DNA from: an uncultured Lachnospiraceae bacterium
GTDB lineage: Bacteria; Bacillota; Clostridia; Lachnospirales; Lachnospiraceae
Reading direction: 5' to 3'
Assembly (NCBI GenBank): GCA_947243855.1
Contig: CAMXIK010000002.1
Span: 101,417-165,416, forward strand
DNA length: 64,000 bases
Position 1 is the stretch's first letter; every line of letters begins with the position of its first letter. Below are positions 44,365 through 63,029 of this stretch, piece by piece. The position numbers and the translations under genes are program-made. Under the pieces are notes generated by a model that made no database searches, was not told where the DNA came from, and saw only the letters and a list, made by a program, of their open reading frames with translations.

Positions 44365-45483
44365 ATGACAACAAAAATTTTGGTTACAAAATCTTCTATG
44401 CCGCCTTATGAAGAGTATATAGAGGCAATAAAGCCGCTTTGGGATACGCATTGGCTTACCAATATGGGGATTTATCATAAGCAGCTAGAAGGTGAACTGC
44501 GCGATTTTTTGAATGTGAAGGAATTATCTTTGATGGTAAACGGGCACATGGCGCTGGAAATGGCAATCCAGATGATGGGGTTTCCGTCTGGGGCGGAGGT
44601 GATAACAACACCATTCACCTTTATATCTACGACCCATGCGATTGTGAGAAATAATTTAAAGCCAGTATTTTGCGACGTGAAAGATGCGGACGGAACAATA
44701 GATGAGACAAAAATTGAGGATTTGGTAACCGAGAATACCGTGGCAATCGTGCCAGTCCACGTATACGGGAATGTTTGTAATGTGGAGGAAATCCAGAGAA
44801 TTGCGGATAAATATAATTTAAAGGTAATTTATGATGCGGCTCATGCATTTGGGGTGAACTATAAAGGATTGGGAATTGGCAGCTATGGGGACGCATCAGT
44901 TTTCAGCTTTCATGCGACAAAGGTATTTAACACCATTGAGGGTGGAGCTGTGGCTTTTAAAGAACACCTATATTACGAAAAATTATATAATCTTAAAAAT
45001 TTCGGAATCCGGGGAGAAGAGCTTGTAACCTCTGTGGGCGCCAATGCGAAGATGAATGAGTTTTGTGCGGTCATGGGGCTTTGTAATATACGGCACTTAA
45101 AAGAAACGTTTCAAAGTCGTGAGGAACGGTATTCATTTTATAAAAAAGAGCTTTCCGGTATAAGGGGAATCCGTCTGTTTGAAGAAAAGGAGGCGGTAAC
45201 AAAAAACTATGCGTATTTTCCTGTTTGTATTACGGAGGAATATGGGCGAACGCGCGATGAAGTATACGACATGCTTGCAGAACAGGACATTCATGCCCGT
45301 AAATATTTTTATCCGTTGACGGCGGATCAGGCGTGTTTCAGAAACAAGTACAGGGATATGAACTTGTCTGTTGCAAGGACTTTGGCGAGCCAGATTCTAG
45401 TGCTGCCGTTTTGGGCGGATATGGAGTTCGATAAACTGCAATATATAGTAGATCTGCTTGGGAAATTTGGAGGAGCCATATGA
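44365..45483 (+). CDS. DegT/DnrJ/EryC1/StrS aminotransferase
   Basis: 372 residues, a PLP-dependent sugar aminotransferase. The PLP lysine is in SFHATKVFNTIEGGAVAFKE; VIYDAAHAFGVNYKGLGIGS and VIVPVHVYGNVCNV-like segments are also typical. It transfers an amino group to a nucleotide-linked keto sugar (or a free small ketone) for surface glycans. The substrate-building genes that usually accompany it (dTDP- or UDP-sugar dehydratases) are absent from this window, which is notable. The 3' end overlaps the ATP-grasp gene by 4 bases. Confidence 0.94.
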   Translation: MTTKILVTKSSMPPYEEYIEAIKPLWDTHWLTNMGIYHKQLEGELRDFLNVKELSLMVNGHMALEMAIQMMGFPSGAEVITTPFTFISTTHAIVRNNLKPVFCDVKDADGTIDETKIEDLVTENTVAIVPVHVYGNVCNVEEIQRIADKYNLKVIYDAAHAFGVNYKGLGIGSYGDASVFSFHATKVFNTIEGGAVAFKEHLYYEKLYNLKNFGIRGEELVTSVGANAKMNEFCAVMGLCNIRHLKETFQSREERYSFYKKELSGIRGIRLFEEKEAVTKNYAYFPVCITEEYGRTRDEVYDMLAEQDIHARKYFYPLTADQACFRNKYRDMNLSVARTLASQILVLPFWADMEFDKLQYIVDLLGKFGGAI

Positions 45484-46697
45484 AAAAGGCATTAGTGTTG
45501 GCCGGGGGAATACCGCAGATTAGGTTAATTCAGGATCTGCAAAGCAGAGGATATTATGTGATATTGGCTGATTACAATAAATTACCTGTGGCGAGTCCGT
45601 ATGCAGATAAATTTTTACAAGAAAGTACATTGAATGTTGATGCGATGAGGCATATTGCTATATCAGAGCAGGTTGACTTAGTAACCACATGCTGTACGGA
45701 TCAGGCGCTGGCGGTTGCTTCCTTGTTGTCTCAGGAATTGGGACTACCGTGTTATGTGGATGGTAACACGGGAAAGACGGTTACTAACAAGCAGTATATG
45801 AAGAGTCGGTTTGCGGAATGGAACATACCGACAGCGGATTTTTGTATTGTTTCAGAAACCGAACCGGAAATAAAGATGGAATACCCTCTTATCGTGAAAC
45901 CGGTGGACTGCAACAGTTCAAAAGGTGTAACGAAGGTAAATTCAAAAGCAGAGTTGTATGCTGCGGTTCGGATTGCAAGGGAAATGAGCAGGACAAATAC
46001 GGCGATTGTGGAGAGATATATTGATGGATTTGAAGTTTCTATAGATGCATTTGTGATAAATAGGGAAGCAAAGATATTATGCCGATCGCTTACTGAGAAA
46101 ATCAAGAGTGAGGATAAATTTATCATCAATCGGGGCATTTACCCAGCGCCGATTACAAAGGAATTGGAAGATGAAATAGATTTGGTGGTTGAGAAAATTG
46201 TAGAGGCATTTTCGATAGATAACGGGCCGCTGTTAGTACAGCTTCTGGTAAAAGAGGAAGATATCTATGTGATAGAATTTAGCGCGAGAACCGGAGGATG
46301 TATCAAATATCATATGATTGAGCTTGCATCAGGTGTTGATGTGATCAAAGCAATGCTGGATGTTACGGAGGGAAAGCGTGTGAATCTGCCATATAGAAAA
46401 TCAAAGAAATCAGTTGTCAATGAGTTTTTATATGCAAATAATGGAGTGCTTTCACATTTGGAAGGCGTTGAGGAATGTAAACATCAAGGATGGGTTGAGG
46501 AGGTATTTGCGCTGAAAGCGAAAGGCGCAGTGGTGAAAAATCCAACATGTAGTGGCGATAGGGTAGCTGCATTAACATATGTCGCAGACAGCATGGAGGA
46601 ATATCGTAAGATGCGGGAAAAAACGATGAAACATTTGAAAGTCATGGACGAAAATGGAAGAAATCTGATTCGATACGATTTATTGGGGGATATGTAA
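45480..46697 (+). CDS. ATP-grasp ligase
   Basis: 405 residues. It has the three parts of ATP-grasp enzymes: an N-terminal Rossmann-like part (ALVLAGGIPQIRLIQDLQ), the glycine-rich ATP loop (YPLIVKPVDCNSSKGVTKV), and the metal site ending in VIEFSARTGGCIKYHMIEL. Such enzymes join a carboxylate to an amine or thiol through an acyl phosphate. Overlapping the aminotransferase gene suggests it acts on the amine made by that enzyme. Substrates are not predictable. Sequence resembles the carbamoyl-phosphate-synthase-like group used in surface-polymer and antibiotic pathways. Confidence 0.92.
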   Translation: MKKALVLAGGIPQIRLIQDLQSRGYYVILADYNKLPVASPYADKFLQESTLNVDAMRHIAISEQVDLVTTCCTDQALAVASLLSQELGLPCYVDGNTGKTVTNKQYMKSRFAEWNIPTADFCIVSETEPEIKMEYPLIVKPVDCNSSKGVTKVNSKAELYAAVRIAREMSRTNTAIVERYIDGFEVSIDAFVINREAKILCRSLTEKIKSEDKFIINRGIYPAPITKELEDEIDLVVEKIVEAFSIDNGPLLVQLLVKEEDIYVIEFSARTGGCIKYHMIELASGVDVIKAMLDVTEGKRVNLPYRKSKKSVVNEFLYANNGVLSHLEGVEECKHQGWVEEVFALKAKGAVVKNPTCSGDRVAALTYVADSMEEYRKMREKTMKHLKVMDENGRNLIRYDLLGDM

Positions 46698-46703
46698 GTA
46701 CAT

Positions 46704-48068
46704 ATGGATAATCAGACAGATATTTTGCTGAGGAAAATAGATGAGCTATATAAGGCTGATGTACCGGAGCTTGTATATGAAAGGGCAAAACTGGCGCTTC
46801 TTGATTACATAGGAGTTACCCTTGCAGGCACAGAAGCTATGAAGGAAAAAGTGAAAGAATATTTTGCAGCTGCACAGCCGGAGGCTGGAATATTTACTGC
46901 AATTGGCGTGTCAACAAAGTGCAATTTGAAAGATGCCGTTTTTTTAAACGGTTTGCATGCGCATGCCATGGATTTTGATGATGGGACAAACGCTGGCATT
47001 ATTCATCTTGGCTCTCCTGTTTTTTCTGTTTTGCTGCCTCTGACACAGCGTTGTCAGGCGGATATGAAAAAGCTGCTGCGCTCGGCCATAATCGGCTACG
47101 AGATGTCTTATACGCTGGCAACAACAATCCAGCCAAGACATAAGGAAATGGGTTATCATGCCACTGGAACATGCGGAGTATTGGGAGCTGCCGTTGCAGC
47201 CTCTTATTTGTTGGATTACAGCGAAGAGGAAAGGAAACGTGCGGTTGCTTTTGCTAGTGTGTCAGCATCAGGGATGCTGCAAGTATTGGACGACGGCTCG
47301 GAATTAAAACCTTATAACGTGGCGAAAGCTGCATTGCTTGGGCTTGTTGCCGTGCAAATGGCAAAATGTTCCTTTCAGGTTCATGCAAATCCGATCGGCG
47401 GGGAGCGGGGATTTTTGCAGATGATGGCCGGGGATGCTTCAATCAGGGTTAAGAGTCCGAAGCAGGAGGGAAGATATGCAATAGAGAGGGCTTATGTGAA
47501 ACCCTATGCGGCCTGTAGATATTGTCATCCGGCAATCGATGCGGCGATACAAATACATAAAGCCGGCACGGTCAAGATAACCAATATCGAAAAGATTTTG
47601 GTAAAGACGTATGCGCTTGCCGTAAACAAGCATGATCACACGGTAATACCGACGGCCGCGTCTGCCAAGATGAGCATTCCATACGGCGTTTCCGTGGGGT
47701 TATTATACGGAAAGGCAGGGTTTGAACAATATCAGGAAAAATATCTTCATCTTGCGGATATGGAAAAATTGATACAGAAGATTTCCGTGGAAGCAGATAA
47801 GGATATGACAGATGCATTTCCGCAGCGTACATATGCAAAAGTTGAGATTTGGATGAAAGATGGCGGAAAAATGGAAAAAAGGGTTTCATTACCAAAAGGC
47901 GAGCCGGAGAATCCGTTGACTCCGGACGAGTTTTATAAACGGTTTGAGGAACTGTTGGTGTATGGCGGAAAAACAGCGGGCGATGCGGAACAGATTTGGG
48001 AATGCGTAATACGGGAGCGGGATATCAGAAACTTATTGGCAGGGCTTGGAGGAAGGTGCTTTGGATAG
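46704..48068 (+). CDS. MmgE/PrpD family protein
   Basis: 454 residues, soluble. The family pattern is clear: AKLALLDYIGVTLAGTEAMK, NGLHAHAMDFDDGTNAGIIH (the catalytic region), LRSAIIGYEMSYTLATTI, HATGTCGVLGAAVAASYLL and KPYAACRYCHPAIDAAIQI. Family members dehydrate 2-methylcitrate or decarboxylate cis-aconitate. Here, with no methylcitrate synthase or lyase of the propionate pathway nearby, it probably acts on another hydroxy-acid in the glycan-linked pathway. Its last 8 bases overlap the next gene. Confidence 0.93.
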   Translation: MDNQTDILLRKIDELYKADVPELVYERAKLALLDYIGVTLAGTEAMKEKVKEYFAAAQPEAGIFTAIGVSTKCNLKDAVFLNGLHAHAMDFDDGTNAGIIHLGSPVFSVLLPLTQRCQADMKKLLRSAIIGYEMSYTLATTIQPRHKEMGYHATGTCGVLGAAVAASYLLDYSEEERKRAVAFASVSASGMLQVLDDGSELKPYNVAKAALLGLVAVQMAKCSFQVHANPIGGERGFLQMMAGDASIRVKSPKQEGRYAIERAYVKPYAACRYCHPAIDAAIQIHKAGTVKITNIEKILVKTYALAVNKHDHTVIPTAASAKMSIPYGVSVGLLYGKAGFEQYQEKYLHLADMEKLIQKISVEADKDMTDAFPQRTYAKVEIWMKDGGKMEKRVSLPKGEPENPLTPDEFYKRFEELLVYGGKTAGDAEQIWECVIRERDIRNLLAGLGGRCFG

Positions 48069-49101
48069 TGCGGTAAAACTGATACAGGGGAATTATTGTT
48101 GTCGTTATCAGGGTAAAATGCTGTATGTAACCGAGCAAGGCTCATTACTTGCGGGACTGGAGCCGCAATCAGGAAAAATAGAAATCTTTCAGGCAGAACC
48201 CCTCAAAAACAGAATTTATAAATTGATGGTGGTGGATAATGCTGTATACGCAGTTGATATAAAAGGATATTGGATTGCGGAGTTGGTAATGGGTGAAACA
48301 AAGTACCGATATTATGAAACAGGCTGTCATAAGACGGATATAGGAAACGAAGCTTTCATCTGCGTATGGAATAAAAAAATACATCTGTTTGCGAATGACG
48401 GGGCGGAAGTGACGGTTTTTGATACGGCTACTAAGAAAATATGTAAAGACAGAATTGGACTGTGGGAAAAGGGGAAGACGCCGCGTTTTGATTGTGGATT
48501 TTTGGAGAAAGATGATTTTACATGGCTGTTTAGCGGCTCTATGAAATTGGTAATTAAATATGACATGAGGAAAAAAGAGATTGTGGATACACACAGCCTT
48601 CCTCAGTCAGAACAGGTTATGTTCGCTTGTCGGTTTGGCGAAAGTATTTTGGTTTTATGTGCGAATACAGTATACCAGATCGGTAGGAAAACGGAGGCAC
48701 TGTTTACAGTTCCGGAGACAGAGCCGTTGACAAAATTATGTCTTACAGAAAAAAACATATGGGTTTTGCCGGGGGACGGAGAACATATTTACCTTTATGA
48801 TTTGGAGACGGGGAGATACGAAAAGTATAACGATTATCCGTTAGATTTTCAATATGATATACCGAAAGGCTGGGGAAAATATACAAGCTATTGCGAAGAT
48901 GAGAATGCCTATTACTGGGTAATGCGTTCAAATAATTATTTCTTGCGGATTGATAAGGAAACAGGGCTAGGTACGTGGATATATCCGCAAAATATAAAAA
49001 AGGAATATTTGTTAAAAAGATACTATATTGAGGGGAAGAAAACGATATCGGAAAAAATACTTCCATTAGATGAATACTTAGAATGGATCATGCTGCTGTG
49101 A
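48061..49101 (+). CDS. Beta-propeller-like protein of unknown function
   Basis: 346 residues with no signal or membrane segment. It consists of short beta strands with repeating motifs such as YKLMVVDNAVYAVDIKGYW, ICVWNKKIHLFANDGAEVTV and KNIWVLPGDGEHIYLYDLE, suggesting a 6- or 7-bladed propeller. No family was recognised. TTG 48061 has GGAGGA 7 bases upstream and overlaps the end of the PrpD gene by 8; an in-frame TTG at 48046 lies on top of that ribosome site. It sits between the PrpD-like gene and the first radical SAM gene. Confidence 0.82.
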   Translation: MDSAVKLIQGNYCCRYQGKMLYVTEQGSLLAGLEPQSGKIEIFQAEPLKNRIYKLMVVDNAVYAVDIKGYWIAELVMGETKYRYYETGCHKTDIGNEAFICVWNKKIHLFANDGAEVTVFDTATKKICKDRIGLWEKGKTPRFDCGFLEKDDFTWLFSGSMKLVIKYDMRKKEIVDTHSLPQSEQVMFACRFGESILVLCANTVYQIGRKTEALFTVPETEPLTKLCLTEKNIWVLPGDGEHIYLYDLETGRYEKYNDYPLDFQYDIPKGWGKYTSYCEDENAYYWVMRSNNYFLRIDKETGLGTWIYPQNIKKEYLLKRYYIEGKKTISEKILPLDEYLEWIMLL

Positions 49102-49129
49102 GAAAGGCAGCTTAGAACAGGAGGGAAAA

Positions 49130-50527
49130 ATGAAATTTTGTAAGCGGCCTTTTGAGCAGATTTATGTAAGCGACAGTTATATTAAGACCTGTCCGTGGAC
49201 AAATTTAGAGCTGGGAAATCCGTTGGAAGAATCTATAGACAAGCTCTGGCATAATGATAAGGCGGAAGAAATTCGGGAATCTATTCGGGATGGAAGTTTC
49301 CGCTTTTGCAGGAAAGAGGAATGTCCATGGTGTGCCAGCGATCAGTTGGAAGAGGTTCCGGAGGAAGTGGGAAAAAACTATAGGGCGGAGGAAACGCCGA
49401 CGAACATGAATGTTTCCTATGACAGATTCTGCAATCATTCCTGTCCGTCTTGCCGGAGTCAAATATTTCGCCCGGATGAAGAATATGTGGAGCGCATGAA
49501 ACAGATGAAGGCGACAGTGCTCCCGATAGCCAACAGAACCCAAAGATTAAGCACTTGCGGAATGGGAGACTGTTTTTCCAGTCCATTTATTATGGAGTTT
49601 TTGCAGGAACTCAGACCAGAAAGGCCGGACTTTTATCTTTCGTTCGAGACAAACGGCGTTCTGGCTGATGAAAAGCATTGGGAGGCAATTCGGCATCTGC
49701 ATAAATACCCGATTAATTTTACGGTTACGCCCAATAGTTTTGAACGATATACATACCGTTATCTGTCTGGCGGACATGACACTTTGGAACTATGCAAGAA
49801 AAATTTGAAATTTATCAGTACCTTGCGGAAAGAAGGAAAAGTAGACAGCTTCAAAATCAATATGGTTGTGCAAGAAAGTAATTACTGTCAGATTCCAGAC
49901 TTTATTCAATACTGTCTTGACGAATATGATCCGGATATTATTCAGATTAAGCCGTTGAACCGGTGGTTTTGTCTGAATGCGGAAGGATATTGGTTTAAGA
50001 ATATTTTAAATCCATTACATCCTTATCATGAAAATTATCTTGCCGTAATGAATCATCCGATTTTACAGCATCCGAAGGTTTTTGATTGGACGACGGTCAG
50101 CCATGACCGGGCGGAGAAAAAGCACCCTGCCGCATATGATGAAAAGATAGTCGGACTGCTTTATGGCCTGTTGCAGAAAGAAAATTGCGGCCGGTATATT
50201 ACGGAAAGGTTGGAACAATTGCAGTGTAGAAAGGCAGCTATTTATGGCGCGTGGAAATACGGAGAATTAACGCATGCGTTACTTACAAAATCGCCCGAGT
50301 GTTCGGTTGTGTTTTTTATTGATAAATATAAAGGAGGAGGGCAAAATTTGCTATGCTGTGATTTGCCGATCCGTAAAGTATGGGGAGAAAATTTTAACGA
50401 GGTAGACGCTATCTTTATTTCCGTGCTTTCCTTGTATGAGGAGGTATCGAAGAATCTCCGGGACGGCGGATTTCAGGGAAAGATTTTGTCTTTGCTGGAT
50501 TTAATTAATCAGGGGGATGCTGGATAA
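49130..50527 (+). CDS. Radical SAM protein with N-terminal SPASM-like Cys region and Rossmann tail
   Basis: 465 residues. The radical SAM C-x3-C-x2-C is at Cys 101, 105 and 108 (DRFCNHSCPSC). Before it, Cys 4, 21, 60, 65 and 68 form a SPASM-like pattern (FRFCRKEECPWC) that in ordinary SPASM proteins follows the radical SAM core, so the order is inverted. Typical barrel strands follow (LSFETNGVLADEKHWE, VTPNSFERYTYRYLSGGHD). The last 100 residues are a Rossmann-like tail (KAAIYGAWKYGELTHALL). The enzyme would use a 5'-deoxyadenosyl radical on an unknown substrate, perhaps a sugar or peptide. AGGAGGG precedes the start. A paralogue is at 54158. Confidence 0.9.
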   Translation: MKFCKRPFEQIYVSDSYIKTCPWTNLELGNPLEESIDKLWHNDKAEEIRESIRDGSFRFCRKEECPWCASDQLEEVPEEVGKNYRAEETPTNMNVSYDRFCNHSCPSCRSQIFRPDEEYVERMKQMKATVLPIANRTQRLSTCGMGDCFSSPFIMEFLQELRPERPDFYLSFETNGVLADEKHWEAIRHLHKYPINFTVTPNSFERYTYRYLSGGHDTLELCKKNLKFISTLRKEGKVDSFKINMVVQESNYCQIPDFIQYCLDEYDPDIIQIKPLNRWFCLNAEGYWFKNILNPLHPYHENYLAVMNHPILQHPKVFDWTTVSHDRAEKKHPAAYDEKIVGLLYGLLQKENCGRYITERLEQLQCRKAAIYGAWKYGELTHALLTKSPECSVVFFIDKYKGGGQNLLCCDLPIRKVWGENFNEVDAIFISVLSLYEEVSKNLRDGGFQGKILSLLDLINQGDAG

Positions 50528-50697
50528 GCTTAACGGTATGGCTGCTATTTCCATTGTGGATCTTAGGTCTGGCAAAACAGATTTATAATTGTACAGCCGA
50601 CTCAAAGAGATCTCTAATTTGGAATTTACAAGTATGTGGCGTGCAATCAGTATGGAAACATGGTGCCAGTTATTTTTAGACAGGAAAGGATTTGCTG

Positions 50698-52017
50698 ATG
50701 ACAGAGCATAATGAAGTGGGACAGATGGAGCCGCTGGTATCGGTACTTTCTCTTACCTATAATCAGGCGGAATATGTGGAGGATATGCTGGAGGGATTCC
50801 TAAAACAGAAGACTACATTTCCAGTAGAATATATTATCCATGATGATGCGTCGACTGACGGGACAAAGGAAATCCTGAAGCGGTATGAGGAAAGCTATCC
50901 GGGAAAATTTCAAATAATTTATGAGAATGAAAACCAATGGAGTAAGGGGGTTAAAATCACACGAAATATACTGCTGCCCAAAGCAAGGGGAAAGTATATC
51001 GCATTTTGTGAAGGAGATGATTTCTGGATTGATAGAAATAAGCTGCAAAAGCAGGCAGACTATTTAGAAACGCATTCCGATTGTGTTTGTGTAGCGCACA
51101 ATGCCTTGATGTGGGACTGTGAAAATAACGTGATAGGAGCGATGGATGTTTTTGATTCTGAAAGAGTTTTGACTGCAAGAGATATTATTGACAGACAGCA
51201 TCCGTCGCTGGCAACTGCTTCAAAGATGCATCGAAAGGAAATGCTGTTTTTACCCAGACTGTTTCTTGAATGTGGAGAGGTCGGGGATATGCCGACGGAT
51301 TTTTATACGTTTACAAAAGGGAAGATGTTTTATTCGGATGAAATCATGTCTATCTATCGGTATAAAAGTAAGGGTTCATGGTCGAAAAGGGTAGATAGTG
51401 ACATTAAAAATTTGATTAAGTGGAGCGCTGTCAGGTGCTCTTTTCTCAGTAAATATAATGCGTATACGCGTGGTGATTATGAATTATATGTAAGTATTTA
51501 TATGACTAGATCGGTACAAAATGTCATAGACTGGCTGGATCGGGCTGGAATGAGTGAAGAATTGTTTTTGCAGGCATTTTATGAAGTGCAAGAAAACACA
51601 AACGGGCATGATGTGGCATTGCAGGAGATAGAGCGGGTGGTCTCGCTTCTGCTTTATGGAAAAGAGGAGAAGTTTTCTGCGCAGTTAAAGGGGCTAAAGG
51701 CAAAAAAGTTTTATTTATATGGGGCAGGCAATTACGGACATATGCTTGCAAACTTTTTTCGGGTAAACGAGCTGGATTTTGAGGGTTTTGTTGTAGGGGA
51801 TACCAGCAAAAATCCTTCAGAAGCAGCAGGGAAAAAGGTGATTGGTATTGTAGATTATGAGCGCATAAAAGAGGAGTCCATTCTCATCATTGCATTGGGC
51901 AGTACCCATTGGGAGGAGGTTTCCCATACGCTGCGTGAGCATGGAATCAGCGAGTATATTTATCCGATTTTGGTAAATCCTTACACATCTTATGAGGAGA
52001 TAAAAAATTATGGGTAA
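50698..52017 (+). CDS. Family 2 glycosyltransferase with C-terminal Rossmann-like domain
   Basis: 439 residues. The GT-A part has VSVLSLTYNQAEYVEDMLEG, IIHDDASTDGTKEILKRYEE and the metal motif CEGDDFWID. After about residue 325 a separate domain begins with KKFYLYGAGNYGHMLANFF, a G-x-G-x-x-G nucleotide-binding start, and runs to the end. ATG 50698 is preceded by AGGAAAGG; a TTG at 50692 is an alternative. It overlaps the next glycosyltransferase by 8 bases. About 170 bases before it, after the radical SAM gene, hold no gene. Confidence 0.92.
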   Translation: MTEHNEVGQMEPLVSVLSLTYNQAEYVEDMLEGFLKQKTTFPVEYIIHDDASTDGTKEILKRYEESYPGKFQIIYENENQWSKGVKITRNILLPKARGKYIAFCEGDDFWIDRNKLQKQADYLETHSDCVCVAHNALMWDCENNVIGAMDVFDSERVLTARDIIDRQHPSLATASKMHRKEMLFLPRLFLECGEVGDMPTDFYTFTKGKMFYSDEIMSIYRYKSKGSWSKRVDSDIKNLIKWSAVRCSFLSKYNAYTRGDYELYVSIYMTRSVQNVIDWLDRAGMSEELFLQAFYEVQENTNGHDVALQEIERVVSLLLYGKEEKFSAQLKGLKAKKFYLYGAGNYGHMLANFFRVNELDFEGFVVGDTSKNPSEAAGKKVIGIVDYERIKEESILIIALGSTHWEEVSHTLREHGISEYIYPILVNPYTSYEEIKNYG

Positions 52018-53008: not shown

Positions 53009-53040
53009 GGAACGTCTACAGCGTAAGAGAGGAGAAACCA

Positions 53041-54138
53041 GTGTTTTATGAAGAACTTATCAAAGTAATTGAAGATTTTACATATAAATTGATGGATGAG
53101 GAATCAAGGAATCTATATGATGTAAGGCTTCGGTATTTTTTCGACGGAGACAGGGACAGACTGGAAGAACAAATCATGGAGCTGTCAATGAAAAATAAAG
53201 ATTCTTTTTCCTGCTGGGTCTTAGATGAATATTTTAAGCGGTGTCCGCATAATCAGGGATTGCCGTTTGTCGTATTTGCAGGGGGAAGACTGGCGGGGAG
53301 AACGGTAAGGACGCTTTTGGCTATGGGACTGCCGATTCGCGGCGTGGTAGATAACAATCAGGAGAAGTGGGGAAAGCAGTTGTATGGCCATACCATAGAA
53401 AATCCGAAGGCAATAAAGGCAGAATATGGAGATTGTGTAGTTGTGGTCGATGTACCCCGCGACAGCCGGATAGAGGTATACCATCAGTTGTACCATATGG
53501 GCATACCTATGGACCGGGTATGTATGCCGCCCGCAGGAGGACTGTATTGTGATTTTGGGGTGCAGTATTTTGATTTAGACGCCCTGAAGCCAGACTCCAA
53601 AGGAGAGATTTTTATTGATGCGGGCTGCTTTAATGGAGGCTCTTCCGTTAAAGCGGCGGAATGGGCGGAAGGAAACGTTCGCAAGATATATGCTTTTGAG
53701 CCGGACGGAGATAGTATTCAGCGGTGCGAGGCGGCGTTGGGAAAATTGGGCTGCGAGTACGAGCTTTATAATATGGCGACGTGGTCCGGCAAACAGACAC
53801 TGTTTTTTGAAAGCAGTGGTTTTAACAGGAGCGGTTCCAAAACGGATATGAACGCTGATAAGGGAATCAAGGTTGAAGCGGACAGTATTGACAATGTACT
53901 GCAAGGGAGACCGGCTACTTATATTAAGCTTGATGTGGAGGGCAGCGAACTGCATACGCTTAAAGGCGCAATAAAGACAATAAAGAAATATAAGCCAAGG
54001 CTGGCAATCTCCATATATCACAAGCCGGAAGATATCATTGAAATTCCACAGTTTATGGAAAAGTTGGGGATGGATTACCGTTATTATATCCGGCAATACC
54101 AGACTAGGTGGTGTGAGACAACGTTATATGCAATATGA
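53041..54138 (+). CDS. FkbM-family methyltransferase with N-terminal Rossmann-like domain
   Basis: 365 residues. The C-terminal half is a FkbM methyltransferase: FIDAGCFNGGSSVKAAEWAE, KIYAFEPDGDSIQRCEAAL and YIKLDVEGSELHTLKGAI. It uses S-adenosylmethionine to O-methylate, in this context probably a sugar. The N-terminal half contains FVVFAGGRLAGRTVRTLLAM and GVVDNNQEKWGKQLYG, the same kind of Rossmann-like module found in four other proteins of this block. The start is GTG 53041 with GAGGAG 6 bases upstream; no in-frame ATG fits. Confidence 0.92.
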   Translation: MFYEELIKVIEDFTYKLMDEESRNLYDVRLRYFFDGDRDRLEEQIMELSMKNKDSFSCWVLDEYFKRCPHNQGLPFVVFAGGRLAGRTVRTLLAMGLPIRGVVDNNQEKWGKQLYGHTIENPKAIKAEYGDCVVVVDVPRDSRIEVYHQLYHMGIPMDRVCMPPAGGLYCDFGVQYFDLDALKPDSKGEIFIDAGCFNGGSSVKAAEWAEGNVRKIYAFEPDGDSIQRCEAALGKLGCEYELYNMATWSGKQTLFFESSGFNRSGSKTDMNADKGIKVEADSIDNVLQGRPATYIKLDVEGSELHTLKGAIKTIKKYKPRLAISIYHKPEDIIEIPQFMEKLGMDYRYYIRQYQTRWCETTLYAI

Positions 54139-54157
54139 GCAGGAGAGGTGTTGGAAG

Positions 54158-55549
54158 ATGATAAAGTTTTGCGACAGACCATTTAATTCGATTCATTTGG
54201 ACCCTAATGGGGGATGTAGATTATGCGCATGGACAAATGCCAATCTTGGGGATTTGACCAAGGAAGATTTGGAAACAGTTTGGAATAGCGAGAACGCAAA
54301 TAAAATTCGGGAAGCTGTGAAGCAGGGGAATTATGAATTTTGCAGAAAAACTTCCTGCCCGTTTTTGGAGAACGATTCGCTTCCAGAAATTTCTGAGGAG
54401 GAAGCGGAAAAAATGGTTCCGGAAAAGCTGCCTACTCACTATAGTGTGGCGTGCGATTTTATCTGCAATCACAGTTGCCCATCCTGCCGAAATGAGATTT
54501 TCCAGCCGGATGAAGCGTACAGAGACCGATTAAAGCTGATTCTGGATAAAATTCTGCCGTATCTGAACAGAAAAGAGACGGTTAAGGTATTGACGGATGG
54601 AAATGGAGATTGCTTTGCCAGTCCTTATATTATGGATATGCTGGAACGTCTGCATCCTGAGAATGAGGATTGTCAGATTGGTTTTGAGACGAATGGAGCG
54701 CTGTTGGATGAAGCGCATTGGAAACGGATCAGACATCTTGCAAAGTATGACGTTCATGTTACGGTTACTCCTAACAGTTTTATTCGTTCAACGTTTACTT
54801 ATCTGAACGGAGGGCATGACAGTTATGACGCTGTGATGCGCAATCTTGCATTTCTCAGAAAACTGCGGGAAAAGGGAGACGTAAATTGGATTCGCATTTC
54901 TATTGTCCTACAGGAACGGAATTTTTGGGAATTTCCTGAGTTTGCGAGACGGTGTATTGAAGAGTTCTCGGCAGATGAGGTGGTTGCTAAACCGTTATAT
55001 CGTTGGTTTATGCTTTCTCAGGAGGATTACTGGTTTAAGGATGTGCTGAATCCATTGCATCCGTATCATAAAGAGTATTTGGAGATGCTGGAAAACCCGA
55101 TTTTAAAAGATCCTAAAATTTTCTACTGGGGCGCGCGTAATCTTCATGCTAGGAGAGAGCATCCGGCACAGCTTTATAAAGAACATATGAAAATTACGGA
55201 AATGCTTTTGGACAGACAGGATGCGGCGGAAGTGCTACAGAAACGTCTTCATGAGAAAAACGTCATATCGCTATACATATACGGAGATATGGAGCTTGCC
55301 AGTGTATTGTACCATGTACTGTCAAAAACAGATATCGAATTGAAGGGGTTTATAGCGAGAGATATGGTAAAGGGCGAACGCTGTGGACAAAAAGTCATAT
55401 GTCTGCATGATTACGAGCCTCAAGACACAGACGCCATATTGATATTGAATAATTCCTATATGGCGGAGATAGTGCGGGATTTTCATTTTAAGGGTTTTTA
55501 CGGGACGCTTCTGCCTGTAAACGAATTGGTTGAGGACTTGGATAGATAA
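54158..55549 (+). CDS. Radical SAM protein, paralogue of the protein at 49130
   Basis: 463 residues from ATG 54158, aligning end to end with the first radical SAM protein. Cluster cysteines are 103, 107 and 110 (ICNHSCPSC). The N-terminal Cys set is 5, 20, 23, 62 and 67; the cysteine at the position of the first protein's Cys 68 is replaced (CPFL instead of CPWC) while an extra CRLC motif appears, so the auxiliary cluster has a changed ligand set. The C-terminal 100 residues form a Rossmann-like domain (SLYIYGDMELASVLYHVL). The two proteins probably work on related substrates. AGGAGAGG precedes the start. Confidence 0.9.
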   Translation: MIKFCDRPFNSIHLDPNGGCRLCAWTNANLGDLTKEDLETVWNSENANKIREAVKQGNYEFCRKTSCPFLENDSLPEISEEEAEKMVPEKLPTHYSVACDFICNHSCPSCRNEIFQPDEAYRDRLKLILDKILPYLNRKETVKVLTDGNGDCFASPYIMDMLERLHPENEDCQIGFETNGALLDEAHWKRIRHLAKYDVHVTVTPNSFIRSTFTYLNGGHDSYDAVMRNLAFLRKLREKGDVNWIRISIVLQERNFWEFPEFARRCIEEFSADEVVAKPLYRWFMLSQEDYWFKDVLNPLHPYHKEYLEMLENPILKDPKIFYWGARNLHARREHPAQLYKEHMKITEMLLDRQDAAEVLQKRLHEKNVISLYIYGDMELASVLYHVLSKTDIELKGFIARDMVKGERCGQKVICLHDYEPQDTDAILILNNSYMAEIVRDFHFKGFYGTLLPVNELVEDLDR

Positions 55550-55564
55550 ATGCGGGGAAACAGG

Positions 55565-56542
55565 ATGAAACTGATATTAGGGACGATGACTTTCGGTGAG
55601 CGTATTTTTGAAACGGACACAAAGGAAGTGTTGTCTGCGTTTCTAGGGGCTGGATATAACGAAATAGATGCGGCTTATGTATATAACAACGGAAGCTGTG
55701 AAAAGATGCTGGGTAATCTTTTCAGAAAGATGGATAGAGCCGCATACCGTATTGCGTCAAAAGCAAATCCCCGAATTACGGGGAGACTAGATGAGGAAGC
55801 AGTGCTGTTTCAGGTGGAAGAATCATTGGAAAGGCTGGGAGTGGACTGGCTTGACACACTGTACCTGCATTTTCCAGACGAAAATACACCAGTGTCGGAA
55901 GCGCTTAAAGGCTGTGCGAGGCTTTATGAGGCGGGAAAAATACGGGAAATTGGCTTGAGTAATTTTCCCGCATGGTTAGTGCAGGAAGCCTGCCAGATTT
56001 GTAGGGAAAACAACTGGCCTTTACCGGGAGTATACGAAGGCTTATACAATCCTTTAAGCAGAAAAGCGGAGGAAGGGTTAGAGGAATTGCTTTCGACATG
56101 CGGGATGCGGTTTTATGCTTATAATCCATTGGCCGGCGGCATTTTGACAGACAAATATATTGCAGCGGGCTGGCAGCTTCAGGAAGGAAGATTTATGAAC
56201 CGGCCAAACTATCAGCAGCGTTATTGGAAGAAAAGTTATTTCAAGGCGGTCGAGTTGGTAAACGAGATTTGCAGCCGGTATGGGATTAGCATAAGCGAGG
56301 CTTCTTACCGTTGGCTTACCTATCATTCGATGCTGAAACAGGAGCGGGGTGACGGGATTATTGTCGGCGTGTCAAGGCTGTCACAGCTAGAAGCCAACAG
56401 GAAGGCGCTGGAACAAGGAAGTCTGCCGAATGCGGTTGCAGATGCATTTGAACAGGCATGGGAAATATGCAGGATGGATGCGCCGGAATATTTTCGGTTT
56501 TATAAAAGTCAGACAATCGAGGAAAGCAGGGGAAAAATATGA
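55565..56542 (+). CDS. Aldo/keto reductase
   Basis: 325 residues, a TIM-barrel NADPH-dependent reductase. The catalytic tetrad is visible: Asp and Tyr in NEIDAAYVYNNGSCEKMLG, Lys in ASKANPRITG and His in LYLHFPDENTPVSEAL. GLSNFPAWLVQEACQICREN and VGVSRLSQLEANRKALE are standard cofactor-binding parts. The closest group appears to be the AKR7-like aldehyde reductases. In this place it could reduce the aldehyde made by the following ThDP decarboxylase. The start could be ATG 55565 or ATG 55550 right after the previous stop. Confidence 0.93.
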   Translation: MKLILGTMTFGERIFETDTKEVLSAFLGAGYNEIDAAYVYNNGSCEKMLGNLFRKMDRAAYRIASKANPRITGRLDEEAVLFQVEESLERLGVDWLDTLYLHFPDENTPVSEALKGCARLYEAGKIREIGLSNFPAWLVQEACQICRENNWPLPGVYEGLYNPLSRKAEEGLEELLSTCGMRFYAYNPLAGGILTDKYIAAGWQLQEGRFMNRPNYQQRYWKKSYFKAVELVNEICSRYGISISEASYRWLTYHSMLKQERGDGIIVGVSRLSQLEANRKALEQGSLPNAVADAFEQAWEICRMDAPEYFRFYKSQTIEESRGKI

Positions 56543-57657
56543 TAGACCAGTCGGCCTTTTTAAAGATGTTAACAGACAAGGGCATTACATTTTATACGGG
56601 AGTGCCGGATTCCTATCTAAACGGGTTCTGCACACAACTTGCAGGTTTACCGCAGGAGAGGCATATTATCGCAGCAAATGAGGGTAATGCTATTGCCATT
56701 GCTGCGGGGCATTATTTTGCAACCGGAGAAATTCCGCTTGTCTATATGCAAAATTCTGGTATGGGAAATGCAATGAATCCGTTGCTTTCACTTACGGACA
56801 GGAATGTATACTCTGTGCCAATGCTGCTTTTGATTGGATGGAGAGGGGAGCCGGGAACCAATGATCACCCGCAGCATGACAGGCAGGGAAAAATTGTGAC
56901 CGAACTGTTAGAACTGTGGGACATTCCTTACATAATAGCATCAGAAAAAGAGATAGAAAGTCAGGTTGATTGGGCAGTTTGTGAAGCAAAAAGAAGAAAA
57001 TTGCCAACAGCCATCATTGCAAGAAAGGGAACGTTCGGAAAGAGCGAGAAGGAGAACATTGCGGACGACAGCTACGAGCTTAGCAGGGAGGAAGCGATAG
57101 AGGAGACGTTAAATCTGATGCCGGCGGATACCATTTATGTCGCAACAACAGGACGCGCCACGAGAGAGTTGTTTTATTTGCGGGAAAAAAGAAGGGAAAA
57201 GCATGATAATGATATTTTAAACGTGGGAGCTATGGGGCATGCGTCTTCGATCGCGCTGGGACTTGCGCTGGCCGATAAGCGCCATTATATCGTGTGTCTG
57301 GATGGGGATGCGGCTGCTATTATGCATATGGGAGCGATGGCGGTTAATGCAAAAAGCAGTCCTCCAAACTTGCTGCATATGGTATTGAACAATGGCGCTC
57401 ATGAAAGTGTGGGTGGGCAGCCCTCGGCGGGGCATTTTATGAATCTGACAAAGGCGGCACAGGCAGCAGGTTATCGGACCTTTGACAGGCAGGTGGAGAA
57501 TCGCGTGGATTTAAAGGCGGCAATCGCTTTGTTTCAAAAGGAACAAGGGCCTTTCTTTATTGATATGAGAATACATAAAGGACTGAGAGGAACGCTTCCA
57601 CCATTACATGTTTCGTATGTAACGCTAATAAAAGAATTTACGGATAACCGAAAATGA
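56539..57657 (+). CDS. Phosphonopyruvate decarboxylase-like ThDP enzyme
   Basis: 372 residues, the length of Ppd. ThDP and substrate features match the family: YTGVPDSYLNGFCTQLAG, the Glu in IIAANEGNAIAIAAGHYFAT, NSGMGNAMNPLLSLTD, GWRGEPGTNDHPQHDRQG, and the Mg/ThDP motif LDGDAAAIMHMGAMAV with VLNNGAHESVGGQPSAGH. Ppd converts phosphonopyruvate to phosphonoacetaldehyde; relatives decarboxylate sulfopyruvate and other 3-substituted pyruvates. No PEP mutase gene is in the window, so another 2-oxo acid substrate is possible. It overlaps the aldo/keto reductase gene by 4 bases. Confidence 0.9.
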   Translation: MIDQSAFLKMLTDKGITFYTGVPDSYLNGFCTQLAGLPQERHIIAANEGNAIAIAAGHYFATGEIPLVYMQNSGMGNAMNPLLSLTDRNVYSVPMLLLIGWRGEPGTNDHPQHDRQGKIVTELLELWDIPYIIASEKEIESQVDWAVCEAKRRKLPTAIIARKGTFGKSEKENIADDSYELSREEAIEETLNLMPADTIYVATTGRATRELFYLREKRREKHDNDILNVGAMGHASSIALGLALADKRHYIVCLDGDAAAIMHMGAMAVNAKSSPPNLLHMVLNNGAHESVGGQPSAGHFMNLTKAAQAAGYRTFDRQVENRVDLKAAIALFQKEQGPFFIDMRIHKGLRGTLPPLHVSYVTLIKEFTDNRK

Positions 57658-57682
57658 GATTTGGTGCAGGGAGGGACAGACA

Positions 57683-58567
57683 TTGAAAGAAACAAGAAAC
57701 TTTTTGAAGTCATTAGGACTGCCGGCAGGAGACGCATACAGTTTGGAGAGCTCTGAAAAAAGATTTGATGATGGCGGACAATATCGATTTGAAGTGCCCG
57801 GAATTCAGGGACCGAAGGCGATGGAAGCTTTACTTGATGAGCTTGATAAGTATCAAATTGCACTTCACAGAGTTACGCAGACCAAGGGGATTATGATGTT
57901 GTCAGATCAGGAAATTATGTCCATGGTGCGGCTGGCGGAACAGGAAAAGCTGGAGCTTATTCTTGCAATTGGACCGAGAGCAACGACAGATACCAGCGCT
58001 TCTGTTAATACGCCGGAGGGCGTGAGGATGGGATATCGTCTGAGGGGGCAGGAGCAGATTGTGAGAGCTGTGGAAGATGTGAAAAGAGCAGTCTCCTTTG
58101 GATGTAAATCGTTTTTGGTTTATGACGAGGGCTGTCTGTGGCTCCTTAATGAGATGAGAAAAGCCGGTGAGCTTCCGGTTGGGTGCCGTTTCAAGGTTTC
58201 CGCACATATGGGTCAAGGGAATCCTTGTTCGGCAAAGGTACTTGCAATGCTGGGGGCGGATTCTATTAATCCGGTCAGGGATATTCAGCTGCAGATGTTG
58301 GGAGCGATTCGGCAGGCAATTGACATACCGATTGATATACATACGGAAAATCCCAAATCGACGGGAGGATTTATCCGTCACTACGAAGTTCCGGAAATGA
58401 TTCGGATTGCTGCCCCTATTTACTTGAAAACCGGAGGCTCCGTTGCAGCTACACATAGTTGGGATACAACGGAAGAGGATGCGAAGAAGAGAGCCAAACA
58501 GGTTTCTTTGGTAAAACGGGTAATCGACGTTTATTATCCGGAAGCTATACAGTCGAAAAAAGAATAG
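57683..58567 (+). CDS. TIM-barrel protein, U32-peptidase-like
   Basis: 294 residues. Repeating strand-helix units (ALHRVTQTKGIMMLSDQEIM, LELILAIGPRATTDTSAS, GCKSFLVYDEGCLWLLNEM, FKVSAHMGQGNPCSAKVLAM, IPIDIHTENPKSTGGFIRHY) suggest a TIM barrel; the closest resemblance I can see is to U32-type peptidases. An isocitrate-lyase-type PEP mutase was considered and excluded because the EDK motif is absent. The start is TTG 57683 with GGAGGGAC upstream; no ATG fits. Conserved Asp, Glu and His residues in IHTENPK and SAHMGQG could be active-site parts. It lies between the Ppd-like and lyase genes, so a related catalytic role is likely. Confidence 0.8.
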   Translation: MKETRNFLKSLGLPAGDAYSLESSEKRFDDGGQYRFEVPGIQGPKAMEALLDELDKYQIALHRVTQTKGIMMLSDQEIMSMVRLAEQEKLELILAIGPRATTDTSASVNTPEGVRMGYRLRGQEQIVRAVEDVKRAVSFGCKSFLVYDEGCLWLLNEMRKAGELPVGCRFKVSAHMGQGNPCSAKVLAMLGADSINPVRDIQLQMLGAIRQAIDIPIDIHTENPKSTGGFIRHYEVPEMIRIAAPIYLKTGGSVAATHSWDTTEEDAKKRAKQVSLVKRVIDVYYPEAIQSKKE

Positions 58568-58580
58568 AGGGGAATAACCG

Positions 58581-59732
58581 ATGAAGCATCATAAGTACCA
58601 TCCGGGATTTCCATTTGTGAGAGAACCGGAGGAATTTGATAAATACACGGATAAGGAATTACTGCAATATTGCCTTGGCGCGACCATTTATATGCCGGGG
58701 ACAATGCAGTTTGCAGAAAAGCTGATGAAAGGCGCCATACCGGGACTGACATCCCTTGTCTTCTGTTTTGAGGACGCTTGTCCGGAAGAAGAGGTGGAAA
58801 ATGCAGAAAAAAATGTGTTGGATATGCTGGAACAAATATACAGTGAGATAGAAAAGGGGAATATATCGTTTGCCGATTTGCCGCTGATATTTGTACGAAT
58901 CCGCAACCAGCAGCAGTTTGAGCACTTTGCTGAGCAGCTTACAAAGAAGCACATAAAGGTGCTGACGGGTGTAAACTTTCCAAAGTTTAACAGAGAGAAT
59001 GGGGAACAGTATTTGGGGTATTTACAGAAGCTGAACAATAAGTTTCATGAAGTGCTGTATGCCATGCCTATTATTGAGGATTCGGGTGTGGCATTTAAAG
59101 AGACAAGGCTGGAAGAATTGGTTGGCATTCGGGAAGTGCTGGACCAACATAAAGAGATCGTTTTACAGGTTCGGGTAGGTGCGACGGATTTTTCTTCCTG
59201 CTTTGGCGTAAGAAGGGGTGTAGATTATTCCATTTATGATATTTTAACGGTGCGGGAAATTCTGTCTGACATCATAAATATATTTGGACGTAATAATGAC
59301 TATGTTATATCGGGGCCTGTGTGGGAATATTTCCGTGCAAGCAAGCAGATGATGTTTCGCGAGCTTCCTGGATATGATATAGAAGATTGCCTTTTAAAGA
59401 GGATTCCGATTGTAAACACAGAGATAGACGGTCTGCTTCGAGAGGTAATTTTGGATAAGGCGAATGGTTTTGTTGGCAGAACGGTTATTCACCCAACCCA
59501 TATTAAATATGTGAACGCTATGCAGGCAGTTACGAAAGAGGAGTATCAGGATGCCGTTAATATTATCAGCAGCAAGAGCGGCGGCGTTTTTAAAGGAAGC
59601 GGCGGAAACAAGATGAATGAGGTGAAGCCACATACAAACTGGGCGACAAAGGTTTATATGAGGGCAAGGGCATATGGGGTAATCGAAAACGAGAATAGCT
59701 ATATTCGATTGTTTACTATGGAGAACGAATAG
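58581..59732 (+). CDS. HpcH/HpaI aldolase / citrate lyase beta-like C-C bond lyase
   Basis: 383 residues. Like CitE-type lyases it has YMPGTMQFAEKLMKGAIPGL, the acidic pair in VFCFEDACPEEEVE, arginine in LIFVRIRNQQQFEH and a glutamate in YAMPIIEDSGVAFKETRLEE; RVGATDFSSCFGVRRG and FVGRTVIHPTHIKYV complete the barrel. The family splits or forms carbon-carbon bonds of hydroxy- and keto-acids such as citrate, malyl-CoA and citramalyl-CoA. It resembles the longer HpcH/HpaI lyases of accessory metabolic operons. AGAGGGG precedes the start. It sits directly before the two fumarase-like subunit genes. Confidence 0.87.
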   Translation: MKHHKYHPGFPFVREPEEFDKYTDKELLQYCLGATIYMPGTMQFAEKLMKGAIPGLTSLVFCFEDACPEEEVENAEKNVLDMLEQIYSEIEKGNISFADLPLIFVRIRNQQQFEHFAEQLTKKHIKVLTGVNFPKFNRENGEQYLGYLQKLNNKFHEVLYAMPIIEDSGVAFKETRLEELVGIREVLDQHKEIVLQVRVGATDFSSCFGVRRGVDYSIYDILTVREILSDIINIFGRNNDYVISGPVWEYFRASKQMMFRELPGYDIEDCLLKRIPIVNTEIDGLLREVILDKANGFVGRTVIHPTHIKYVNAMQAVTKEEYQDAVNIISSKSGGVFKGSGGNKMNEVKPHTNWATKVYMRARAYGVIENENSYIRLFTMENE

Positions 59733-59745
59733 AAGAGGGCTTGCA

Positions 59746-60249
59746 ATGAGAGAGATCAGGACACCGATCGGCGAGGATGTGGCAAAGACGGTTTGCGTTG
59801 GGGAAAAGCTGCTCATAAGCGGAAAAATATATTGTGGCCGGGATGCGGTACTGCCAAAAATCTGCGCGTTAGCGGAGCAAGAGGAATTGCGGGAAAAGGG
59901 GATATCGCTTGTAGGGAGCGTTATTTTCCATACGGCTGTCAGTGTGGCTGGTGTTGGGCCAACCTCAAGTAACAAATTGGAGATAGAAACTAGTATTCCA
60001 ATTCTTTCAAAAAGAGGCGTGAAACTGCATCTAGGCAAGGGCGCATTATCCAAAGAGACGGTTCGTGCATTGGGTGAGTATCATTCGATATATGCGGTAA
60101 TGCCTCCGGTTACGGCTTTGCTGAAAAATAATACTATATCCACTCGGCTTATTGCGTATCCAGAATTGGGAATGGAGGCTTTTTATGAGTTGGAAGTATG
60201 CGGTTATCCGGTGATTGTGGCAGCCGCAAAGGGGGAGTGTATCTGGTAG
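59746..60249 (+). CDS. Fumarate hydratase C-terminal-type (beta) subunit
   Basis: 167 residues, the size of the beta subunit of class I fumarases and L-tartrate dehydratases. The pattern KLLISGKIYCGRDAVLPKIC, SVAGVGPTSSNKLEIETSIP and SKETVRALGEYHSIYAVMPP is characteristic. At the conserved TTS-x-RM substrate site the sequence reads TSSNKLE, with Lys in place of Arg and without the Met, which points to a substrate other than fumarate. It lies before its alpha subunit, the reverse of the common order. Confidence 0.88.
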   Translation: MREIRTPIGEDVAKTVCVGEKLLISGKIYCGRDAVLPKICALAEQEELREKGISLVGSVIFHTAVSVAGVGPTSSNKLEIETSIPILSKRGVKLHLGKGALSKETVRALGEYHSIYAVMPPVTALLKNNTISTRLIAYPELGMEAFYELEVCGYPVIVAAAKGECIW

Positions 60250-60308
60250 GTCTGCATGGCGGTGGAATGCGGGAAAAGGAATAATAATGTTTTGTATGGA
60301 GCAATGAT

Positions 60309-61199
60309 ATGAAAGAACATGATGAGATTGTTGAGTTGGTATGTCAAACTTTGGTGTCAGCCGGTTCTGTTTTTCGATCGGACAAGCAGGAAGCTTATCA
60401 ACGAGCTGTTCTGAAGGAGAAAAATGAGAGCGCAAAATGGGTGTTGGAGACAATCTGTGAAAATGCAGCCACAGCAGAGAAAAATGGAAGCCCATTGTGT
60501 GACGATACAGGGATTCCGCATCTCATTCTGGATGTTGGATCGGAATGTGCTGTCACAGGTGGGCTTTTGGATGCGATTTATGAGGGTGTGTCGAAGGGAC
60601 TTAGAACGCTTCCCGGCAGACCAATGGCAGTCAAAGGGGAGGAACGAGTTTGTCTGGAGCAATCGGAAGGAATAGAGGAAGATTCAGGACTCCTTGAAGC
60701 AGCTCCTGTTATGATTCGGCGTATTGATCAAAACTTGCTCAGACTGCACATTTTGTTACTTGGAGGAGGACCTGCAATTCGTGGGAAAACCTATCGTGTA
60801 TTTCATAAACATGACGCGCAGAATATAGTGGATGAAATTGTAGAATGGGGCAGGGAAAGCGTGCGACTTTTGGGCTGTACGCCGTGTACGATTGCGGTTG
60901 GCATCGGACGTTCTCAATATGAAGCTTCAGCCCTGATGTTACAGGCTATGGCGGAAGGAAATTACAGCGTGCAAAGCGAGCTAGAGCAGGAAATTACTGA
61001 CCGCCTGAATGAAACAAATGTGGGTGCAATAGGACTCGGCGGAAATACGACTGTTTTGGCTACCTTTATGAAGATTGGGCAGCAGAGAGCAAGCGGCGTG
61101 AGAATTGTCAGCATGAGACCGTGCTGCTGCTTTGAGCCGCGAATTGCCAGTGTAGTGTTGGAGGATAGGGAAAACAAAAAATACGGAGAAATTGTATGA
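60309..61199 (+). CDS. Fumarate hydratase / tartrate dehydratase-type alpha subunit
   Basis: 296 residues. The [4Fe-4S] ligand cysteines are in GSPLCDDTGIPHLILD and LLGCTPCTIAVGIGRSQYEA, and a third is likely in SMRPCCCFEPRIASV; the region GLGGNTTVLATFMKIGQQRA is typical. Together with the beta subunit it would add or remove water across a small dicarboxylate. The CDDTG motif differs from the CQDTG of fumarases. It overlaps the next gene by 4 bases. Confidence 0.88.
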   Translation: MKEHDEIVELVCQTLVSAGSVFRSDKQEAYQRAVLKEKNESAKWVLETICENAATAEKNGSPLCDDTGIPHLILDVGSECAVTGGLLDAIYEGVSKGLRTLPGRPMAVKGEERVCLEQSEGIEEDSGLLEAAPVMIRRIDQNLLRLHILLLGGGPAIRGKTYRVFHKHDAQNIVDEIVEWGRESVRLLGCTPCTIAVGIGRSQYEASALMLQAMAEGNYSVQSELEQEITDRLNETNVGAIGLGGNTTVLATFMKIGQQRASGVRIVSMRPCCCFEPRIASVVLEDRENKKYGEIV

Positions 61200-63006: not shown

Positions 63007-63029
63007 GCAAGCGGCAGGAGGATGAAATT

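Follow-up and report, generated by a model that had tools for sequence, protein, structure and literature searches.

Gene content and organisation of the locus

The window analysed here is a stretch of 64,000 nucleotides from an uncultured Lachnospiraceae bacterium (contig CAMXIK010000002.1), and this study is concerned with a glycan locus that begins at position 44365 of it. Among the aminotransferase, ligase and glycosyltransferase genes of this locus lies a set, referred to below as the cassette, that encodes an MmgE/PrpD-type hydro-lyase, an aldo/keto reductase (AKR), a Ppd-type 2-oxo-acid decarboxylase, a U32-like TIM-barrel enzyme, a C-C bond lyase and the two subunits (fumB and fumA) of a fumarase-like hydro-lyase (Table 1). 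The cassette is real as a genomic unit, and it is suggested here that it could supply hydroxy acids for the decoration of glycans.

All of the enzyme families that a first-pass annotation of the sequence had placed between 44365 and 61199 were recovered there, in a single direction. The many overlaps of 4-8 bases described in the same annotation were overstated. There are four (4 bases at DegT/ATP-grasp, AKR/Ppd and fumA/next open reading frame (ORF), 8 at GT2/GT2), to which an overlap of 23 bases between PrpD and the ORF that follows it may be added if the start of that ORF is as listed, and the remaining neighbours are separated by gaps of 0-164 bases. The locus extends beyond 61199 with a small ORF and genes for a DUF4422, an Rpe-like and an IspD-like protein, and the window ends where the contig ends.

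Table 1. Genes of the locus, with positions in the window
Gene product	Position	Strand	Supporting match or remark
DegT/DnrJ aminotransferase	44365..45483	+	PF01041, 306 bits
ATP-grasp ligase with L-amino-acid-ligase C-terminal domain	45480..46697	+	PF13535, PF18603 LAL_C2
MmgE/PrpD-type hydro-lyase, cassette gene	46704..48068	+	PF03972 153 bits, PF19305 121.6 bits (cut-off 32.1 each)
Protein of 351 amino acids, local accessory outside cassette	48046..49101	+	no Pfam or NCBIfam match
Radical S-adenosylmethionine (SAM) protein, local accessory	49130..50527	+	PF04055 34 bits; N-terminal SPASM PF13186 20.2 bits, slightly under 21.5 cut-off
GT2 glycosyltransferase	50692..52017	+	PF00535
GT2 glycosyltransferase	52010..53008	+	PF00535
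FkbM-type methyltransferase, local accessory	53041..54138	+	PF05050, TIGR01444
Radical SAM protein, N-terminal SPASM, local accessory	54158..55549	+	PF13186, PF04055
Aldo/keto reductase, cassette gene of Ppd variant	55550..56542	+	PF00248, 195 bits
Ppd-type thiamine-diphosphate 2-oxo-acid decarboxylase, cassette gene, PepM-less branch	56539..57657	+	TIGR03297, 398.7 bits (cut-off 312.5)
U32-like TIM-barrel enzyme, most conserved cassette gene	57683..58567	+	76-84% identity in 80 loci; AlphaFold2 TIM barrel
C-C bond lyase, cassette gene	58581..59732	+	PF15617, 388 bits (cut-off 28.4); predicted CitE / malyl-CoA lyase fold
Fumarase-like hydro-lyase beta subunit, cassette type	59746..60249	+	PF05683
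Fumarase-like hydro-lyase alpha subunit, cassette type	60309..61199	+	PF05681, 160 bits
Small ORF, locus continuation	61196..61579	+	no family; relative in L009
DUF4422 protein	61583..62281	+	PF14393, 152 bits
Ribulose-phosphate 3-epimerase-like (Rpe-like)	62344..63006	+	PF00834, 158 bits
IspD-like cytidylyltransferase	63003..63719	+	PF01128, 122 bits

Recurrence of the cassette

The barrel was used as query in a scan of one genome per species, which confirmed 241 stretches. The best 80 loci were kept, and the set is therefore biased towards the barrel of the window. These loci come from Bacillota, Bacteroidota, Fibrobacterota, Lentisphaerota, Actinomycetota, Spirochaetota and Pseudomonadota, and include many metagenome-assembled genomes. 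Gene presence was counted by hidden Markov model (HMM) matches within 9 kb of the barrel gene and, except where all 80 loci are named, in the 55 full loci with at least 5 kb on either side of it, so that 25 of the 80 stand outside these counts. The C-C lyase is present in 53 of the 55 full loci, PrpD and fumB in 52 each and fumA in 51, and the commonest gene order is PrpD-AKR-Ppd-U32-CClyase-fumB-fumA. In the window itself PrpD is separated from the other cassette genes by six non-cassette genes. Two PrpD genes per locus were seen in L073 and L035. Cultured carriers include Mediterraneibacter glycyrrhizinilyticus An427 (L008, of the Ppd type) and Billgrantia campisalis A4 (L068, with a 2-HADH, the D-2-hydroxyacid dehydrogenase described below).

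A check in sampled genomes found, beyond the genome of the window, barrels with identities of roughly 70% and above in G060, G081, G244, G699, G706 and G877. The first four carry the cassette, G060 (a 7.7-kb contig) showing no AKR, while G706 breaks off after 3.1 kb and the operon in G877 is related but has no PF15617. G060 and G699 probably duplicate loci L017 and L011, their contigs being equal in length (7722 and 42029 bases). Within the family the barrel occurs in 3 of 150 genomes, and within the genus the C-C lyase occurs in 3 of 60, one match being weak and the genome of the window being included in both figures. Such sparse occurrence fits horizontal spread of the cassette. Co-occurrence in related genomes had been set beforehand as the test of the first-pass annotation, and its proposal came through it, the cassette genes being found together again and again.

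The radical SAM, FkbM and 48046-49101 genes lie outside the cassette and are confined to the window and a few relatives. Among 86 loci the 48046-49101 protein has weak relatives in L009 and L017 only, both of which are close to the window, and both radical SAM proteins have close relatives in L009. L009, a sister locus, shares its radical SAM, GT2, DUF4422, Rpe-like and IspD-like genes with the window, but its PrpD is a different one (29% identical) and it has no match to the AKR.

An interchangeable enzyme and two modules

Among the full loci the 2-oxo-acid enzyme is Ppd in 32, a D-2-hydroxyacid dehydrogenase (2-HADH) in 15 and a member of the Ldh_2 family in 7, with none in L034, and no full locus has two kinds. 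The same is seen across all 80 loci, where Ppd is present in 51, 2-HADH or Ldh_2 in 25, neither in 4 and both in 0. The AKR accompanies Ppd in 31 of 32 Ppd-type loci and is found in 0 of the 23 others. Because the interchanged enzymes all act, by family, on 2-oxo acids, the product shared by all forms of the cassette would be a 2-oxo acid. Decarboxylation of such an acid to an aldehyde, as had been envisaged from the window alone, is too narrow as a general statement, being one of three fates. At the edge of one locus (L048:2-2248) a 2-HADH gene and a second PrpD gene lie upstream of a full Ppd-type cassette, perhaps as two cassettes side by side.

Quick single-gene trees were labelled by fate (three kinds), or simply as Ppd versus dehydrogenase, and the changes of label were counted. 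In the barrel tree the fate label needs 16 changes against a minimum of 2, and there are sister pairs of unlike fate (L030/L042, L018/L021, L051/L076 and L036/L056). Changes between Ppd and dehydrogenase number 12 for the barrel, 11 each for fumA and fumB, and 2 each for the C-C lyase and PrpD, both of which track the variant; well-supported branches alone force at least 4, 6, 4, 2 and 1, respectively. The trees thus suggest that one compound, shared by the two variants, is the target of the barrel and the cassette-type fumarase, and that the C-C lyase and PrpD would act on compounds specific to each variant.

Features of the cassette enzymes

The C-C lyase had been annotated as an HpcH/HpaI lyase. 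The family to which it belongs is PF15617 (C-C_Bond_Lyase), and it has the predicted fold of CLYBL, malyl-CoA lyase and CitE. For a possible link of PF15617 to the ter operon no paper was found among the matches listed. No coenzyme A (CoA) ligase, CoA transferase or acyl carrier protein family was matched among the 20 locus proteins. In PrpD both Pfam domains pass their cut-offs.

In class I fumarases three cysteines are the ligands of the cluster, and the motifs CQDTG and GPTTSxR serve in substrate binding. No structure paper on these enzymes was among the literature matches listed. The three cysteine columns are common to the cassette alpha subunits and the canonical copies, with RPxCC in 69 of 69 cassette copies and C[ST]PCT in 65 of 69; three of the four exceptions keep the first cysteine of the latter motif, and the fourth, L038, could not be resolved. 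The substrate-binding motifs are different. Cassette alpha subunits have CDD[TS]G in 69 of 69 copies, as against CQDTG in canonical copies, and in 70 of 70 beta subunits the arginine of GPTTSxR is replaced by lysine. Copies from operons with malic enzyme have the canonical motifs throughout (5/5 alpha, 6/6 beta), and the genome of the window also has a separate fumarase alpha subunit with CQDTG.

The barrel matches no Pfam or NCBIfam model, including PF01136 (peptidase U32), which is passed by a distant homologue in L110 (30.9 vs 22.4 bits). Its AlphaFold2 model is a TIM barrel (predicted local distance difference test score 91.7), for which no solved structure related by sequence was found, and its fold matches include, with comparable Z, the U32 protein Mk0906, CutC, class II aldolases and RuBisCO-like proteins. 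The description U32-like comes from the distant homologue and the Mk0906 match. As the fold is a generic TIM barrel with diverse matches at similar Z, no reaction can be read from it. A role as peptidase or iron-sulfur U32 enzyme was set aside, in view of the generic fold and the lack of a Pfam match. Phosphosulfolactate synthase (ComA) was not among the fold matches listed, which carries no weight.

The barrel family comprises 5785 proteins at E<=1e-3, the named members listed being mostly called 'peptidase'. Barrels of 31-40% identity adjoin a PanB-type ketopantoate hydroxymethyltransferase in L111, L114, L118 and L119 and an ELFV amino-acid dehydrogenase in L118, L119 and L126. Since the genes next to its relatives serve the synthesis, use or transport of 2-oxo and hydroxy acids, the barrel is expected to act on such acids as a lyase or aldolase. 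A plasmid search with the barrel gave 4 distant matches, which were uninformative on the cassette. On an Enterobacter chuandaensis plasmid (L136) a U32-like gene lies in an apparent, unassigned natural-product cluster with genes for a phosphotransferase, an aminotransferase, two iron-containing redox enzymes, an M14 peptidase and a major facilitator superfamily transporter.

Glycan context and a proposed pathway

Two or more glycan-gene families were found in 45 of the 55 full loci and in none of the 21 control loci, which surround distant homologues of the barrel, a comparison in which the glycan HMMs, having been built from cassette loci, favour these over the controls. This supports the tie between a carboxylic-acid pathway and glycan loci that had been drawn from the window. 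Apart from loci with a TRAP-type permease, which are considered below, the ATP-grasp gene is present in 22 of 25 Ppd-type and 23 of 23 non-Ppd full loci (45/48 together). Its ATP-driven joining of the acid to a sugar, also put forward earlier, is plausible as a last step. DegT is present in 18 of the 32 full loci of the Ppd type and in 19 of the 23 others.

It is possible to sketch a pathway from fold and family. The C-C lyase would carry out enolate chemistry of the CitE or malate-synthase type, PrpD and the fumarase-like enzyme would add or remove water, and the barrel would act as a lyase or aldolase of 2-oxo or 2-hydroxy acids. In its logic the route might resemble the methylcitrate cycle, with joining or cleavage followed by dehydration, hydration and a cleavage that releases a 2-oxo acid. 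This acid, the presumed product of the cassette core, would then meet the enzyme that is swapped between loci, which would decide its fate, either decarboxylation to yield a shortened hydroxy acid or reduction to a 2-hydroxy acid. The amino sugar serving as acyl acceptor may be a product of the DegT aminotransferase, and the ATP-grasp ligase would be the likely enzyme to couple the hydroxy acid to it. That the cassette is in this way a hydroxy-acid supply route for glycan decoration, acting through a 2-oxo acid and ATP-grasp coupling to an amino sugar, is a proposal to which we give an even chance. A wider version is put forward more tentatively, with a chance a little short of even. It sees a modular acid pathway in which a shared barrel and a re-tooled class I fumarase are combined with a variant-specific C-C lyase and PrpD and an interchangeable 2-oxo-acid enzyme, giving related hydroxy-acid decorations of surface glycans in several phyla, with the barrel as a new class of 2-oxo/hydroxy-acid lyase.

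Alternative explanations

Several observations weigh against these proposals. The roles of all cassette members, with their substrates and products, are predictions from sequence and models, and the model matched by Ppd, TIGR03297, is formally one for phosphonopyruvate decarboxylase. The trees were quick ones, and recombination could mimic the swapping of modules. Exclusion between kinds of 2-oxo-acid enzyme is limited to 9 kb; the 2-HADH and second PrpD of L048 are about 9 kb upstream of its barrel. The C-C lyase is missing in L035, L039 and L041 and both fumarase subunits are missing (within 9 kb) in L040, L068 and L074, and therefore not every cassette member is indispensable. Distant homologues of the barrel occur in acid-catabolic operons. 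Those of 46-55% identity adjoin canonical fumarase and malic enzyme in L101, L102, L103, L104, L107 and L109, together with Ldh_2 in L101, L103, L107 and L109 and PrpD in L104, and L159, with a barrel in the same range, has genes for a tripartite tricarboxylate transporter (TctC/TctA) as well as PrpD, Ldh_2 and an aconitase-family protein. L152 couples a barrel of 71% identity and a cassette-type fumarase with CitE-like and CitF proteins. The operon concerned (L152:6820-17535) looks catabolic, and also holds an iron-containing alcohol dehydrogenase, PrpD, an FAD-linked oxidase and the beta and alpha subunits of an electron transfer flavoprotein. Finally, a DctM-type (TRAP-type) permease is found upstream of the cassette enzymes in 10 of the 80 loci, 7 of these 10 also having LysR.

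These homologues and permease loci lend themselves to another explanation, that the cassette serves to break down an environmental di- or tricarboxylic acid, such as the plant acids of the rumen, and often merely lies in or near glycan loci, Ppd with AKR or the 2-HADH and Ldh_2 enzymes being fermentative electron sinks. The permease loci, mostly without ATP-grasp and DegT, do look like stand-alone acid use: among the seven with full flanks, an ATP-grasp gene is found in one (L058, where it is partial and lies at the edge) and DegT in one. In L057, L059, L067, L075 and L079 the seven-enzyme set, starting with PrpD, has upstream of it LysR, the permease and a small membrane protein that is DctQ-like in its position; in L045 the LysR match is spread over two ORFs and DctM has a short ORF, and L080 is truncated where its contig begins. 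Against catabolism as the general function stand the glycan families and ATP-grasp genes counted above, and the placing of the permease loci, which are scattered within one part of the barrel tree amid loci of glycan context, 5 of the 10 (L045, L055, L058, L067 and L073) carrying at least one glycan-family gene. We consider the catabolic explanation unlikely overall, although it is the main rival. As the same enzymes occur with a permease and LysR, in most cases with neither ATP-grasp nor DegT, the pathway does not serve glycans exclusively, and the earlier proposal of an acid pathway for glycan decoration was in this respect too narrow. In permease loci the cassette chemistry may run on imported acid or be catabolic, and the pairing suggests that the starting acid of the proposed glycan pathway can also be imported.

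A second alternative identifies the shared 2-oxo acid as sulfopyruvate, phosphonopyruvate or another 3-anionic pyruvate, with decarboxylation by Ppd or reduction by a sulfolactate-dehydrogenase-type Ldh_2 leading to sulfonate or phosphonate decorations. Ppd passes the phosphonopyruvate decarboxylase model and matches both sulfopyruvate decarboxylase subunits, and the best match of the variant-B Ldh_2 of L036 is L-sulfolactate dehydrogenase, but the sulfo models all remain under their cut-offs (83.2 vs 147.95 for TIGR03845 and 91.3 vs 221.5 for TIGR03846 with the window Ppd, 289.4 vs 500 bits for the Ldh_2). There is a PepM-Ppd locus on another contig of the genome, but its PepM has a Ppd of its own, 41-42% identical to that of the window. 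This separate phosphonate locus (contig C35, L123; also L002) groups PepM, a nucleotidyltransferase and the second Ppd. No PepM-type family was matched among the 20 locus proteins, and of the 55 full loci one has PepM near the barrel (L058, where a second Ppd is encoded on the opposite strand), on which count a simple phosphonate pathway was rejected. The neighbours of distant barrel homologues also point to carboxylates, and we regard a sulfonate or phosphonate product as quite improbable. A chance assembly of ordinary central-metabolism enzymes in one genome, for which the rarity of the C-C lyase in the genus might speak, is rejected as having next to no probability, because the gene set recurs, with its order conserved over 80 loci, and the genome has its canonical fumarase elsewhere.

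Relationship to known systems and significance

No paper on this gene combination was found among the matches listed from the open-licence part of PubMed Central, mostly titles and the starts of abstracts. The 2-methylcitrate cycle consists of PrpC, PrpD, an aconitase-type hydratase and PrpB. By analogy, the cassette would share with it a PrpD-type and an iron-sulfur-type hydro-lyase, a C-C enzyme and a TIM barrel arranged around 2-oxo and hydroxy acids. It differs in having a fumarase-type instead of an aconitase-type hydratase, a CitE-type enzyme instead of PrpC and a U32-like barrel instead of PrpB, and neither citrate synthase (PrpC-type) nor isocitrate-lyase-family (PrpB-type) domains were matched among the 20 locus proteins. 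In the mesaconate or citramalate route (PMC4682846) a class I fumarase acts as mesaconase, and the lyase that follows it is specific for citramalate or citramalyl-CoA. The pairing of a class I fumarase-type enzyme and a C-C lyase is a feature in common, and the citramalyl-CoA lyase fold was matched here, but the cassette has changed fumarase motifs and the U32-like barrel, PrpD and 2-oxo-acid enzyme in addition. Glutamate mutase family proteins were not matched among the 20 locus proteins. With the PepM-Ppd phosphonate pathways the locus has in common a Ppd-family decarboxylase and, in the wider locus, a cytidylyltransferase-type gene; unlike them it is without PepM, and a hydroxyacid dehydrogenase replaces Ppd in 22 of 55 loci.

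N-acyl amino sugars are a class of decoration of O-antigens and capsules. In both cases a glycan locus combines a DegT aminotransferase with a step of acyl transfer or ligation, although here a dedicated multi-enzyme pathway is predicted to make the acid and an ATP-grasp enzyme to attach it. Many carriers of the cassette bear the names of rumen or faecal isolates. If the proposed pathway is true, it would explain the presence of fumarase, PrpD and citrate-lyase-like genes inside polysaccharide loci, and would give a function to a large family of barrel proteins (the 5785 members noted above). The recurring gene set would also predict a class of unseen glycan decorations, and the swapped enzyme would predict which version of the decoration is made by each strain.

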